Source: Stenotrophomonas sp. 169 (GTDB lineage Bacteria > Pseudomonadota > Gammaproteobacteria > Xanthomonadales > Xanthomonadaceae). From it: a DNA stretch of 64,000 nt. Positions 18,458 to 54,323 of the stretch are shown here, in pieces. Position 1 is the first letter of the stretch. Each line of letters starts with the position of its first letter. The translations under genes were made by a program, and so were the position numbers. Under the pieces are notes generated by a model. It searched no databases. It had not been told where the DNA came from and was given only the letters and a program-made list of their open reading frames with translations. The stretch covers positions 2,748,501-2,812,500 of the forward strand of contig NZ_CP061204.1 of the NCBI RefSeq assembly GCF_014621775.1, in the 5' to 3' direction.

Positions 18458-19129
18458 GTAGCGCCGACCCACGGTCGGCGAGCACATCGGTAGCGCCGAC
18501 CCGTCGTCGGCGAGCGCAGCGGCCGCGCGCGGTCCGGCAATCCGCCGAGCGTGGCTCGGCGCTACAGGAACCGCAGCACATCGGTAGCGCCGACCCATGG
18601 TCGGCGAGCGCAGCGGCCGCGCGCGGTCCGGCAGTCCGCCGAGCGTGGCGTGGCGCTACAGGAACCGCAGCACATCGGTAGCGTCGACCCGTGGTCGGCG
18701 AGCGCAGCGGCCGCGCGCGGTCCCGCAATCCGCCGAGCGTGGCTCGGCGCTACAGGAACCGCAGCACATCGGTAGCGCCGACCCATGGTCGGCGAGCGCA
18801 GCGGCCGAGTGCGGTCCGGCAATCCGCCGAGCGTGGCTCGGCGCTACAGAAACCGCAGCACATCGGTAGCGCCGACCCATGGTCGGCGAGCGCAGCGGCC
18901 GCGCGCGGTCCGGCAATCCGCCGAGCGTGGCTCGGCGCTACAGGAACCGCAGCACATCGGTAGCGCCGACCCATGGTCGGAGAGCGCAGCGGCCGCGCGC
19001 GGTCCGGCAATCCGCCGAGCGTGGCTCGGCGCTACAGGAACCGCAGCACATCGGTAGCGCCGACCCGTGGTCGGCGAGCGCAGCGGCCGCGCGTGGTCCA
19101 GCAATCCGCCGAGCGTGGCTCGGCGCTAC
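18458..19129 (+). repeat. REP array, 94-bp period, seven units plus a partial
   Basis: GTAG heads at 18458 (partial, 32 bp), 18490, 18584, 18678, 18772, 18866, 18960 and 19054. Each unit is a 76-bp dimer of one forward REP (stem CCGACCcatGGTCGG) and one inverted REP (stem CCGAGCgtgGCTCGG, ending GCTAC) plus an 18-bp spacer AGGAACCGCAGCACATCG. Units are nearly identical, with a few point changes (for example 18645, 18725 and 18806). It lies wholly between sspA and sspB. Not CRISPR: the spacers are the same in every unit. Confidence 0.95.
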
Positions 19130-19150
19130 AAGGGGGATGCGCGGTATCGA

Positions 19151-43138: not shown

Positions 43139-43305
43139 GGGAGGGGGCTCCAGAAAAGGGTGGGGGCCGATTCCGGCCAACAGACGGACCCAGCCTAACG
43201 CCCGGACGCCGGATCATCCAGTGACGCACGGGTGACGGATTGGCGACGGCGCCTTGGGCGGCCCGGTGATACGTCCGGTGGCCCCACCGAATAAAACCGG
43301 AATCG

Positions 43306-43898
43306 GTAGCGCCGAGCTATGCTCGGCGAGCGCGCAGCGCGGCCTGTGGCAGGCATCGCGGTGCCGGACGGATTCCGCCGAGCGTGGCTCGGCGCTACAA
43401 CGGGGATGCTGCCGGCACGGTAGCGCCGAGCCCTGCTCGGCGAGCGCGCAGCGCGGCCTGTGGCAGGCATCGCGGTGCCGGACGGATTCCGCCGAGCGTG
43501 GCTCGGCGCTACAACGGGGATGCTGCCGGCACGGTAGCGCCGAGCCATGCTCGGCGAGAGCGCAGCGCGGCCTGTAGCAGGCATCGCGGTGCCGGACGGA
43601 TTCCGCCGAGCGTGGCTCGGCGCTACAACGGGGATGCTGCCGGCACGGTAGCGCCGAGCCCTGCTCGGCGAGCGCGCAGCGCGGCCTGTGTCAGGCATCG
43701 CGGTGCCGGACGGATTCCGCCGAGCGTGGTTCGGCGCTACAACGGGGATGCTGCCGGCACGGTCGCGCCGAGCCATGCTCGGCGAGCGCGCAGCGCGGCC
43801 TGTGTCAGACATCGCGGTGCCGGACGGAGTCCGCCGAGCGTGGCTCGGCGCTACAACGGAATGCTGCCCGCACGGTAGCGCCGAGCCGTGCTCGGCGG
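43306..43898 (+). repeat. REP array, 114-bp period, five units plus a half
   Basis: Heads at 43306, 43420, 43534, 43648, 43762 (GTCG variant) and 43875 (half unit). Each unit is a 93-bp forward/inverted REP dimer (stems CCGAGCyxxGCTCGG and CCGAGCgtgGCTCGG) plus a 21-bp spacer AACGGGGATGCTGCCGGCACG. The forward REP uses the GCTCGG stem, unlike the array at 18.5 kb. Fills the 800-bp gap between potF and puuA. Confidence 0.95.
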
Positions 43899-50888: not shown

Positions 50889-50922
50889 GTAGCGCCGACC
50901 CATGCTCGGCGAGCCCAGCGGG
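50889..50922 (+). repeat. GTAG/SMAG-type REP, single copy
   Basis: GTAG copy with an imperfect stem CCGACCcatGCTCGG and tail GCGAGCCCAGCGGG, about 100 bp upstream of the MHS gene start. Confidence 0.85.
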
Positions 50923-51105
50923 CCCCGCCGCCGAACGTACCGAGCCACCCCGCGCGGATTGGCGCAACCACCGCACACCAGCACAATCCAATCGCGACAT
51001 GCTGCCAACCACGTGATCGCCACCTACGAACCGCAACTTTGCCCATGGACGCAGGCAGGGTCACGTCCGCACGATGATGACGCTGACGACGTAGAAGCGT
51101 CAGCC

Positions 51106-51295
51106 GGGATTGGCATCCCGGATCGTGTGGTCCTTTGCACTCTGTTGCTGCCCTCACGGGCCCGGCGGAGAATGCATTGTCTCGCCCTTCATACGGCGGA
51201 CGGTGCGTGGGGATCCCCGTATCCGCCGGCTTTTGGATCACACGACCGGTATGCCAACCCGCATCGTCCGCCACCCTCGCCTCGGCGCAGGTGGC
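51106..51295 (+). other. Strongly folded leader-like element
   Basis: Arms 51106-51133 and 51235-51260 are inverted copies that pair at 25 of 26 positions (one G-T, one mismatch, two single-base bulges on the left arm), enclosing about 100 bases that contain another 7-bp stem (51194-51200 with 51222-51228). A second hairpin, GCCACC/GGTGGC (51270-51275 with 51290-51295), follows. The element ends 25 bases before a small gene on the plus strand, so an RNA leader is possible. Not recognised as an Rfam family by eye. Confidence 0.5.
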
Positions 51296-51319
51296 CTTCC
51301 TGCCGAGCGAGGTTGACCG

Positions 51320-51743
51320 ATGTCCGGCCAACTCCTGAGCGGTGCACGCCTGCATTCCCTGCTGGGCGACCGCATGCACGACCTGCCCCGCCCCTTCATC
51401 GACACGCTGGAGCGCATCCTGATGGCCAATGGCGTGCCACACCCGGCAGCGGGGCAGCGCCCTGCTCTGCAGCTCGTGTCTGCCTGCACTGACCGCCGCG
51501 ACGACGACGCAACGCAACGCAACGCAACGCGCAGCGTTGGCTGTGAAGTTGCCGGAACGCGCAGTGCCCGGCCTGCAGGAGGGCACCCGCCAGGCATTGG
51601 ACGCGATCCTGGAAATCCTGCACGCGGTACACGACAGCCAGCACGATGGCTCCAACGAGGTGCTGCTGTGCGAGCGTCTGGTCGAGGGCCTGATCGTCGC
51701 CGGACGGCAGCTGGTCCGGGAGGCCGCGCCCAGCGCGCGGTGA
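51320..51743 (+). pseudogene. Small protein gene split by a frame change at a 5-bp repeat
   Basis: From the ATG at 51320, with GAGG seven bases upstream, the reading frame codes MSGQLLSGARLHSLLGD, DLPRPFIDTLERILMANG and so on to about 51506. There, 4.8 copies of ACGCA (51507-51530) occur. After this the coding-quality frame is a different one, ending ...LVREAAPSAR at 51743 with the stop TGA and clear high-GC3 codons. As written, frame one runs on without sense to 51775. One extra copy of the repeat, or two fewer, would join the two parts into a protein of about 142 or 137 residues. Family unknown. It may be an off state of a phase-variable gene, a true pseudogene or a sequencing error. Confidence 0.6.
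51507..51530 (+). repeat. Pentanucleotide repeat ACGCA, 4.8 copies, in a coding region
   Basis: Short tandem repeat of a length not divisible by three, situated exactly where the frame of the small gene changes. Confidence 0.9.
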
Positions 51744-51884
51744 TCCTGTGTAGCGGCGTCCTTCGGCGGGGGTAACGCGTTCGTGCCGCGCGGGAACGCG
51801 GCCGTCATGCGCCTCGCACAGTGCAGACAGCGCCTCGACCCGCCCAGCGGTACCGTGCGCCTACCTGCCCCGCTGGAGCGTTCG

Positions 51885-53237
51885 ATGCCTTCTTCCGCCG
51901 CCTCCCTCACCACGCTGGCCACCACACAACCGGAGACGCTGGACGCGTTCTGGATGCCGTTCACCGCCAACGCGCAGTACAAAGGCGCGCCGCGCATGCT
52001 GGTACGCGCCGAAGGCATGTACTACGAAGACGTGGACGGTCGGCAGATACTGGATGGCACGGCCGGGCTGTGGTGCTGCAACGCCGGCCATGGTCGGAAG
52101 AAGATCGTCCAGGCCATCGCCGAACAGGCCGGCACGCTGGATTTCGCACCCACCTTCCAGATGGGATCGCCTTTGCCGTTCGTGCTCGCACAACGGCTCG
52201 CCGCGCTGGCGCCGGCAGGATTGAACCATGTGTTCTTCACCAATTCCGGCTCGGAAGCGGTGGACAGCGCGATGAAGATCATCCTCGCCCACCACCGCGC
52301 GCGCGGCGAGGGCCAGCGCACGCGCTTCATCGGGCGGGAAAAGGCCTATCACGGCGTCGGCTTCGGCGGCATGGCGATCGGCGGCTTGGCCAACAATCGC
52401 CGTCAGTTCGGCCTGCAGCTTGGCGGCACCGCCCACCTTCCACACACCCTCGATCTGCAGCGCAACGCGTTCACGCAGGGCCTGCCTCGGCATGGCGCCG
52501 AGCTGGCCGACGCACTGGAGCGACTGATCGCGCTGCACGACGCGTCCACCATCGCCGCGGTGTTCGTTGAACCCATCGCCGGGTCGGCCGGTGTCATCCT
52601 GCCCGCGCCCGGCTACCTGCAGCGGCTGCGCGAAATCTGCGATCACCATGGCATCGTGCTGGTGTTCGATGAAGTCATCACCGGCTTTGGCCGCGTCGGG
52701 ATGCCCTTCGCGGCACAGCGTTTCGGCGTCACCCCTGACCTGATCACCTTCGCCAAGGCGGCCAGCAACGGCGCGGTGCCACTGGGCGGCGTGCTGGTCG
52801 CCGATGCCATCCATGCCAGCCTGCAGCAGGGCCCGGCCCAGTCGATCGACCTGTTCCACGGCTATACGTACTCCGGCCATCCATTGGCCTGCGCGGCCGC
52901 CTTGGCCACGTTGGAGGTGTATGCCGAAGAGCGCCTGTTCGAGCGTGCCATCGAACTGGGTGACCACTGGCAGCAGGCCCTGCATCGCCTGCACGACCTT
53001 CCCAACGTGATCGACATCCGCAACTTCGGCCTGGTGGGCGCGGTGGAGCTTGCGCCGCGCCGAGATGCCCCTGGCAGCCGCGGCCACGAGGTGTTCCGGC
53101 GATGTTTCCATGATGGCGACCTGCTGGTGCGCCAGACCGGCGACATCATCGCGTTATCGCCGCCCCTGATCGTGGAACCGGCGCAGATCGACCGGATCGC
53201 CGACGTGCTGGGGGCCATGATCCGCGCCACCGCCTGA
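51885..53237 (+). CDS. Class III aminotransferase (SpuC/omega-amino acid:pyruvate type)
   Basis: 450 residues from the ATG at 51885 (GGAG nearby). Class III PLP fold: WMPFTANAQYKGAPRML near 24, FTNSGSEAVDSAMKI near 119, DEVITGFGRVG near 265, and PLP Lys in LITFAKAASNGAVPLGG near 290. Resembles beta-alanine/putrescine:pyruvate transaminases. It would turn putrescine or GABA into the aldehyde, giving a second route that joins the semialdehyde dehydrogenase. Context is the polyamine region; substrate unproven. Confidence 0.88.
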   Translation: MPSSAASLTTLATTQPETLDAFWMPFTANAQYKGAPRMLVRAEGMYYEDVDGRQILDGTAGLWCCNAGHGRKKIVQAIAEQAGTLDFAPTFQMGSPLPFVLAQRLAALAPAGLNHVFFTNSGSEAVDSAMKIILAHHRARGEGQRTRFIGREKAYHGVGFGGMAIGGLANNRRQFGLQLGGTAHLPHTLDLQRNAFTQGLPRHGAELADALERLIALHDASTIAAVFVEPIAGSAGVILPAPGYLQRLREICDHHGIVLVFDEVITGFGRVGMPFAAQRFGVTPDLITFAKAASNGAVPLGGVLVADAIHASLQQGPAQSIDLFHGYTYSGHPLACAAALATLEVYAEERLFERAIELGDHWQQALHRLHDLPNVIDIRNFGLVGAVELAPRRDAPGSRGHEVFRRCFHDGDLLVRQTGDIIALSPPLIVEPAQIDRIADVLGAMIRATA

Positions 53238-53300
53238 GCCGGGACGCGCCAGCGCGAGCCGGTACAATGGGCGGTTCCGCTCCACGACCGCCCGTTGCCC

Positions 53301-54167
53301 ATGAACATCGTCGTCAAAGAAGAACTCAAGGCCTACATCGACCCGCTCACCGCGGACGAGTACGAAGCGCTGGAGCGCAGCATCCTCGCCGAAGGCTGCC
53401 GCGATGCGCTGGTGCTGTGGGGTGATGTACTGGTGGACGGACACAACCGATACGGCATCTGCCAGAAGCACGACCTGCCGTTCAACACCGTGCAGAACAC
53501 CCGCTTCCAGAGCATGGATGATGTCCACCTGTGGATGATCGAACAGCACCTGGGCCGACGCAGCGTGTCCGACTTCCAGCGTGGCGAACTGGCGCTGCGC
53601 AAGCGCGAGATCCTGGCTGCGCGCAAGCGCATCGAGCAGGAGCAGCTGCAGCGCGAGAGCGATGGCACCAGCGAGGGCCAGGATGAGGACCAGGACAGCC
53701 CCCCGTGGGACCCGGCACCGACGTTCAGCCGTGCCGAACTGGCCCGCGAAGCCAAGCTGAGCAGCAACCAGATCAGCATGATCGAACGCATCCGTGCGCA
53801 GGCTGCGCCGGAAGTGGTCGAAGCGGTAAAGAACGGCCAGCTGTCGATCAGCGCGGCAGCGGCCGTGTCGTCGCTGCCGGAAGACGAACAACGTGCAGCC
53901 GCCACCGGTGGCAAGGACGAACTGAAGCAGGCCGCCAAGCGCGCGCGCGAAGCCAACCGCAAGCCACGCGCCGCCAAGCCGGACGCGGTGGTCGAGGCTG
54001 ACGCGGTCAGCGAGGATGAGCAGGCGCTGCGCGATGCCAAAGTGCTCACCGCCCTGGAGCAGCTGGGTGAAGGCCCGCCCGCGCTGCGCGCCCGAATTGT
54101 CAGCCTGACGCGTGAGAACGACGCCCTGCGCCAGCAGCTGGCGGCCCTGCGCGCCCAGTTGGCGTAG
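53301..54167 (+). CDS. Orphan ParB-like N-terminal domain protein
   Basis: 288 residues from the ATG at 53301; a TTG at 53295 would add two. N-terminal ParB/Srx-like fold (YIDPLTADEYEALERSILAEGCRDALVLWGDVLVDGHNRYGIC), HTH-like middle (FSRAELAREAKLSSNQISMIERIRAQAAPEVVEAVKNGQLSISAAAAVSSLPE) and an acidic/coiled-coil C-terminus. No parA or parS is seen nearby, so its role is probably not chromosome partition. Its stop codon TAG lies within a GTAGAGCCGAC sequence resembling a REP head. Confidence 0.8.
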   Translation: MNIVVKEELKAYIDPLTADEYEALERSILAEGCRDALVLWGDVLVDGHNRYGICQKHDLPFNTVQNTRFQSMDDVHLWMIEQHLGRRSVSDFQRGELALRKREILAARKRIEQEQLQRESDGTSEGQDEDQDSPPWDPAPTFSRAELAREAKLSSNQISMIERIRAQAAPEVVEAVKNGQLSISAAAAVSSLPEDEQRAAATGGKDELKQAAKRAREANRKPRAAKPDAVVEADAVSEDEQALRDAKVLTALEQLGEGPPALRARIVSLTRENDALRQQLAALRAQLA

Positions 54168-54187
54168 AGCCGACGGGCATACCCGAC

Positions 54188-54264
54188 TGGTGGACCTGAC
54201 TGGTGGACCCGACTGGTGGACTGACTGGTGGACCTGACTGGTGGACCCGACTGGTAGAGCCGAC
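54188..54264 (+). repeat. 13-bp minisatellite that resembles a REP head
   Basis: Units of TGGTGGACCTGAC or TGGTGGACCCGAC at 54188, 54201, 54214 (12 bp), 54226 and 54239, ending in TGGTAGAGCCGAC at 54252, which is the head of the REP that follows. Confidence 0.85.
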
Positions 54265-54323
54265 TTCAGTCGGCTGCTGTTTGCATGGGGTAACCAGCAT
54301 CAGCCGACTGAAGTCGGCTCTAC
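54254..54323. repeat. REP dimer with 23-bp perfect inverted arms
   Basis: Arms at 54254-54276 and 54301-54323 are exact reverse complements, each starting GTAGAGCCGAC and containing CCGACTtcAGTCGG; 24 bases lie between. A third REP subtype. It might also terminate transcription from the ParB-like gene. Confidence 0.9.

Follow-up and report, generated by a model that had tools for sequence, protein, structure and literature searches.

The frame-broken gene and the ACGCA tract

The window, i.e. the whole 64 kb stretch of DNA analysed here, carries on its forward strand a small gene (L085) whose frame is broken at a short tandem repeat. The start frame runs from ATG 51320 to a stop codon at 51773-51775 (51320..51775, 151 aa), and its ribosome-binding site GCGAGG lies at 51307-51312, in agreement with the start and ribosome-binding site described in the first-pass annotation. 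About the first 70 residues are family-like, matching residues 1-70 of the intact allele P0003 at 96%, and are followed by an unrelated shifted tail. A second frame on the same strand (51429..51743, stop at 51741-51743) encodes the family C-terminal half and matches P0003 residues 52-137 at 92%. In a profile search, family positions 2-71 were located in the start frame and positions 49-133 in the second frame. The proposed break of the frame at a 24-base tract with a second frame continuing to 51743 is thus borne out, since both frames match one family.

The tract consists of 4.8 perfect tandem copies of ACGCA (24 bases, 51507..51530, forward strand) and falls in the part of the gene for a linker that is predicted to be disordered (residues 45-79 in the intact allele). 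It is the sole period-5 run of at least 18 bases in the window, and 60 dinucleotide-shuffled versions of the window gave none longer than 15 bases. Two direct copies of ACGCGCAG, 30 bases apart, are found on the same strand at 51527-51534 and 51557-51564 (span 51527..51564). A 19-base ACGCA pattern is present in 3 of 91 Stenotrophomonas genomes, namely the source genome (one place, 51507-51530), G072 and G081. The tract of G072 (L160, near position 1501) is longer and is located after GGCGAC/GGCAAC repeats; several open frames cross it, and by eye none of them is the C4 family gene.

Other repeats were seen elsewhere in the window. Tandem arrays of GGTAGCGCCGA...TCGGCG palindromes occupy 18481-19130 (94-base unit, 6.9 copies) and 43304-43897 (114-base unit, 5.2 copies), both of which resemble amplified REP-type elements. 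A 13-base tandem tract at 54181-54265, with 6.6 copies of ACCCGACTGGTGG, lies directly 3' of the open frame 53295-54167 and is a candidate slippage site.

The assignment of the locus to a polyamine region found no support in the two neighbours tested, one of which is an MFS transporter and the other a class-III aminotransferase. An intact relative in Stenotrophomonas tumulicola (G003) adjoins the same MFS gene, with an upstream flank of 88% identity over 1385 bases. Synteny is one-sided: the S. tumulicola stretch contains nothing that matches the aminotransferase side of the L085 locus.

Intact alleles and the helical protein family

When the second-frame piece was searched against a protein database, five of 15 candidates reached an E value of 0.001 or below. 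One of them is P0003 (137 aa, with 11 member sequences and 2 contigs), which contains both halves in one frame and shows 90% identity over 81% of the query piece. Its length corresponds to the L085 gene minus ten bases. In the linker, the first frame of L085 reads DDDATQRNATR, whereas P0003 reads DDDATQRAALAV. Written in the codons of the window, DDDATQRAALAV implies 2.8 ACGCA units, a unit number deduced from the protein. The arithmetic of the first-pass annotation, by which a gain of one unit or a loss of two would join the frames, is correct, and P0003 is a natural allele of exactly the length predicted for two units fewer.

P0006 (126 aa) shares the implied tract start of P0003 (2.8 units, likewise deduced from the protein) and is devoid of the 10 residues encoded between the two direct ACGCGCAG copies. 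This ten-residue loss appears to have arisen between the ACGCGCAG copies, separately from the unit number, and hence the linker may be prone to repeat-driven change generally. P0004 and P0005 (136 aa each) are intact relatives with no implied tract. Out of 432 candidates, a search with the 151-aa frame yielded 4 matches, and all of them are devoid of the shifted tail; gene callers may skip such a frame.

A joined protein of about 140 residues with helices had been expected, and P0003 fits this description with 137 residues and four predicted helices. The AlphaFold model places them at residues 9-21, 24-36, 80-105 and 115-132, with low confidence over most of residues 45-79, the tract region (mean pLDDT 68.2, pTM 0.41). 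A Foldseek search of the PDB with this model gave no match with an E value of 0.001 or below, a result of little weight given the low confidence of the model (pTM 0.41). No confident family was assigned to the helical proteins searched against Pfam, NCBIfam and PHROGs, and P0003 matched neither the phage collection nor plasmid records. Viral contigs contained no confirmed relative of the family alignment and no confirmed instance of a short tract pattern.

Among the best-word-sharing 7998 candidates scored in the profile search, 133 proteins were found; the rows that name an organism (12 among the 120 matches listed) are all from Stenotrophomonas. Three close paralogues show dN values of 0.035-0.059 versus dS values of 0.559-0.721. 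Since dN is well under dS, this points to purifying selection on them.

The C4 element in front of the gene

Upstream of L085, on the forward strand, lies a C4 antisense RNA (Rfam RF01695, 51189..51278; 53.1 bits against a gathering cut-off of 45, E 6.9e-9, full model 1-87). The gene starts 41 bases behind it. The conserved leader begins with a small hairpin GCTGACG...CGTCAGC (51082..51104); by eye, similar hairpins occur in other modules. It is followed by an a1b1-like upstream pairing segment (51105..51133), which is complementary to the C4 arm of the L085 module. Its partner is the C4 variable arm plus CCGGTATGCCAACCCG (51235..51261), and the predicted duplex has an energy of -46.0 kcal/mol, the own partner ranking first. 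Within 50900-51900, neither a sigma-70-type promoter nor an intrinsic terminator pattern was detected.

Membership of the leader in the isrK family (RF01394) was considered and dropped, as 51082-51135 scores 25.2 bits against a gathering cut-off of 50. Over 12 loci, the isrK model gave sub-threshold matches at L085 and L097 (24.4 bits) only, and the position of the L097 match differs from that of the L085 upstream segment.

C4 modules in Stenotrophomonas genomes

The source genome (G000) contains 22 C4 places, 21 of them above the Rfam cut-off. C4 was found in 15 of 41 genomes searched, the source included, with up to 26 copies, and in 0 of 14 control genomes. Six C4 matches come from G047, a genome of the same order and another family; one of them, with 76.9 bits, scored highest in the whole search.

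Behind 12 of the 22 modules of the source genome lies a full-length family member in one frame (L077, L079, L081-L084, L087, L089, L090, L093, L096 and L098). Split family members are L085, the window gene, and L086. L095 has the C-terminal family part only, and in L091 the N-terminal family part is fused to an antidote-like helix-turn-helix. Other antidote-like helix-turn-helix ORFs are present at L080, L088, L092 and L097, and L094 carries an ORF that weakly matches another helix-turn-helix family. The ORF of L078 presumably resembles a LacI regulator. Six of these ORFs were compared with PF21716 (HI1420-type addiction module antidote): L092 and L097 score above the cut-off, L080, L088 and L091 below it, and L094 has no match. 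The pieces of the window gene gave no match to PF21716 in Pfam.

In G003 (S. tumulicola JCM 30961), 14 of 18 loci carry full-length members, two the N-terminal part only and two none. Full-length members follow 14 of 15 loci in G029 (S. chelatiphaga DSM 21508) and four of five in G070. One G029 match was flagged for an internal TGA and by translation ends slightly early. No split family member was seen in the loci examined in G003, G029 and G070. Searched at the protein level, P0003 has matches in 32 of 91 Stenotrophomonas genomes. A scan of genome contigs with alignment A3 matched S. tumulicola and S. chelatiphaga, and the same kind of scan with P0002 gave no confirmed match.

The N-terminal helix pair is also found fused to a HI1420-type antidote helix-turn-helix in L027/L131 (G003) and in L091 (G000; below the Pfam cut-off). 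These fusions suggest that the N-terminal part is a shared module to which different C-terminal domains can be joined. At L028 (G029) and L082 (G000), another ORF lies behind the intact helical gene and by eye resembles an antidote helix-turn-helix. This layout is perhaps the remnant of an operon composed of C4, the helical gene and a helix-turn-helix gene.

Predicted private pairing between the upstream segment and the C4 arm

Each module of the source genome contains an upstream segment composed of CGGGATTGGCATCC and a variable stretch; its complement is the variable arm of C4 together with CCGGTATGCCAACCC. With upstream segments parsed by four hand-picked start patterns, the own partner was the strongest in 22/22 rows and 22/22 columns of the pairing matrix of the 22 modules. 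The mean duplex energy was -38.7 kcal/mol for own partners versus -20.6 kcal/mol for others. For the variable part alone, the own partner ranked first in 17/22 rows and 21/22 columns, and 0 of 20000 partner shuffles reached the observed sum.

In a test over three genomes, a parse rule blind to pairing read 50 of 55 loci (L078, L135, L145, L148 and L154 were dropped); G070 was left out, two of its five loci having been parsed. Own partners ranked first in 21 rows and 21 columns of 21 for G000, in 16 and 17 of 17 for G003, and in 12 and 12 of 12 for G029. The corresponding values for the variable part alone were 20 and 20 of 21, 16 and 15 of 17, and 12 and 12 of 12. An earlier automatic parse, in which some upstream segments were wrong, had given 19 and 19 of 21, 15 and 16 of 17, and 12 and 12 of 12.

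A heptamer core matches exactly in 49 of the 50 parsed modules, and its middle position exists in G-C, C-G and A-U versions. As judged from the sequences, the changes at this position are compensatory, the modules being related so that the counts do not represent independent events.

Leader folding and proposed working of the modules

Leader folding was predicted for 21 of the 22 modules of the source genome (L078 was dropped) in three states: full leader, upstream segment masked and C4 arm masked. With the upstream segment masked, self-pairing of C4 rises in 21/21 leaders, part of this rise being favoured by the masking itself. For the L085 leader it increases from 0.07 to 0.60. The mean predicted openness of the ribosome-binding site, 0.33 in the full leader, is 0.23 under masking of the upstream segment, which lowers it in 16 of 21 leaders, and 0.34 under masking of the C4 arm. 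The drop to 0.23 agrees with a model in which C4, once folded on itself, closes the site, but is too weak to establish a direction of control. For L085, the ribosome-binding site is predicted to stay closed in each of the three states (openness 0.00-0.02).

The following working may be proposed. A typical module consists of the upstream pairing segment, C4, a ribosome-binding site about 25-30 bases later and a small regulator-like gene. The upstream segment and C4 presumably share one transcript, and the leader RNA would adopt either of two competing folds, in which the upstream segment is paired with the C4 arm or C4 is folded on itself. A short RNA released by processing of that transcript, or of a sister one, may then alter translation of the downstream gene, by analogy with C4 in phage P1 and IsrK in Gifsy-1. 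Each module would respond to its own partner sequence only.

Inactivated allele or switch

We consider it probable, the proposed RNA working included, that L085 is a recently inactivated allele of a chromosomal gene for a helical protein of about 137 residues, and that this gene is part of a set of modules, present in many copies, with C4 antisense RNAs. The frame break, the intact allele, the C4 element, the module count, the private complementarity and the purifying selection on three close paralogues were computed here. Open and closed states differ by whole units, which makes slippage the likely cause, and on these sequence comparisons whole-unit slippage has probably occurred at the ACGCA tract. 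Most likely, DNA slippage added two ACGCA units in the linker-coding part, and the N-terminal and C-terminal helix pairs would then no longer be translated as one protein. L086 (G000 2954283-2954802, minus strand), whose C4 module is above the cut-off, is a second frame-split family copy and has no tandem tract; thus ordinary decay occurs in the helical family. The leader of L085 retains C4 and its pairing, and the locus could still be working as an RNA or a switch.

The first-pass annotation had gone further and regarded L085 as a candidate phase-variable gene. Were the ACGCA tract a contingency locus, the gene would be switched reversibly by gain and loss of units. The implied unit numbers of the open and the closed state do differ by whole units; the tandem repeat lies in the frame, and its unit number sets the frame of L085. 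Moreover, in-frame length changes could be harmless in the predicted disordered linker in which the tract falls, and C4, the pairing and both gene halves are retained. Nevertheless, true phase variation is unlikely. The tract has just 4.8 copies, and known five-base switches usually carry more. No such tract is present in the other 50 of 51 family copies from four genomes (partial copies included), nor is one implied in P0004 and P0005, so that the repeat is not kept across relatives; the next longest run in the other copies is 2.5 units, in a survey of periods 4, 5, 7 and 8 within the matched stretches of family copies only. L086, furthermore, was broken without any repeat. A comparison of homologues for 2.8, 4.8 or 5.8 copies had been suggested: 2.8 units are implied in the open alleles P0003 and P0006, 4.8 are present in the closed source genome, and the protein database searches found no third number. 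What stands of the earlier claim is a single gene broken at a repeat, with a close open-frame allele of another implied unit number (P0003); the switch itself is unsupported.

Three further explanations leave the inactivated allele as our preferred reading. The two halves might now be made separately, the second from GTG 51564, and maybe still cooperate. The database indeed contains a 59-aa gene call for the C-terminal piece of L085 (P0007) whose length fits a start at this GTG, one half occurs alone at L095, L133 and L154, and the helix pairs are joined by the predicted disordered linker alone. But P0007 has one member sequence versus 11 for the intact P0003, and both halves are in one frame in 12 of the 22 modules of the source genome, which renders a split gene very unlikely. 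An error of sequencing or assembly would explain why protein database searches with both L085 frames found the closed state in the source genome alone. Typical sequencing errors concern one base, however, and the implied change is exactly ten bases, within a tandem tract of a one-contig assembly; such an error is therefore highly improbable. Programmed ribosomal frameshifting at the repeat could join both frames, since the overlap of the two open frames covers the tract. Yet the intact allele, with its other implied unit number, reads straight through, and by eye the tract contains no slippery run of identical bases, so that this explanation is scarcely credible.

On the preferred reading of L085 as an inactivated allele, the ACGCA repeat shows how a gene copy of a module can be lost. 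For the whole set, we give an even chance to a wider proposal: Stenotrophomonas chromosomes would hold about 20 domesticated phage-immunity RNA switches that work in parallel without cross-talk, each with its own base-paired address (upstream segment and C4 arm) and its own small helical or helix-turn-helix regulator, and the window copy would have a second, genetic layer through the slippage tract in its linker. If the private pairing works, about twenty orthogonal RNA switches would exist on one scaffold in one genome, a ready-made set for tests of RNA specificity.

Comparison with known systems

A bacterial genome with many copies of C4-like RNAs is already known (A. baumannii, PMC5320573). 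Among open-licence papers, none names both Stenotrophomonas and C4 antisense, and one, on Xylella vesicles, names both Xanthomonas and C4 antisense. Against that literature, two features look new, namely the private partner upstream of each C4 and the families of proteins encoded behind the modules.

Neisseria opa is a slipped-strand phase-variable gene with five-base repeats. L085 resembles it in having a five-base unit within the coding frame whose number sets the frame, and differs from it in the shortness of the tract. In phages P1 and P7, the C4 target lies on the same transcript, and a1b1 is the upstream partner of C4. According to PMC5320573, RNase P releases C4 of these phages from a larger transcript, and the loops of C4 base-pair with the target mRNA near its ribosome-binding site. 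The c4-a1b1 motif appears in a table of Weinberg et al. 2010 (PMC2864571, table entry). The Stenotrophomonas modules share with the phage system a C4 above the Rfam cut-off, a small gene behind it, an upstream complementary segment and a variable arm that possibly sets specificity. In contrast to the phage C4, they are chromosomal and multi-copy (22 places), and by family-profile and Pfam searches their ORFs fall into other protein families.

A second parallel is IsrK/orf45/anrP of the Salmonella prophage Gifsy-1. According to PMC4825925, the fold that is translationally inactive contains a cis duplex between the middle part of IsrK and about 30 bases of orf45, and short IsrK acting in trans switches translation on. 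The Stenotrophomonas modules would resemble this system in a 5' RNA segment that pairs over about 30 bases with a downstream segment of the same transcript, and in two alternative folds. Unlike in Gifsy-1, the isrK covariance model stays below its cut-off here and the pairing partner lies before the ORF.

A third parallel is Group 1 of Acinetobacter baumannii AB5075, for which portions of PMC5320573 describe 21 C4-like sRNAs with a variable a' loop, apparently processed from longer transcripts. Many similar C4-type RNAs thus occur in one genome in both cases (21 there by that description, 22 in Stenotrophomonas). The Stenotrophomonas modules differ from Group 1, as described in those portions of PMC5320573, by their private upstream partner and by the protein family behind the RNAs. 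If the proposed pairing is true, it could explain the variable a' loop of A. baumannii, whose partner may lie on the same transcript rather than on a distant mRNA.
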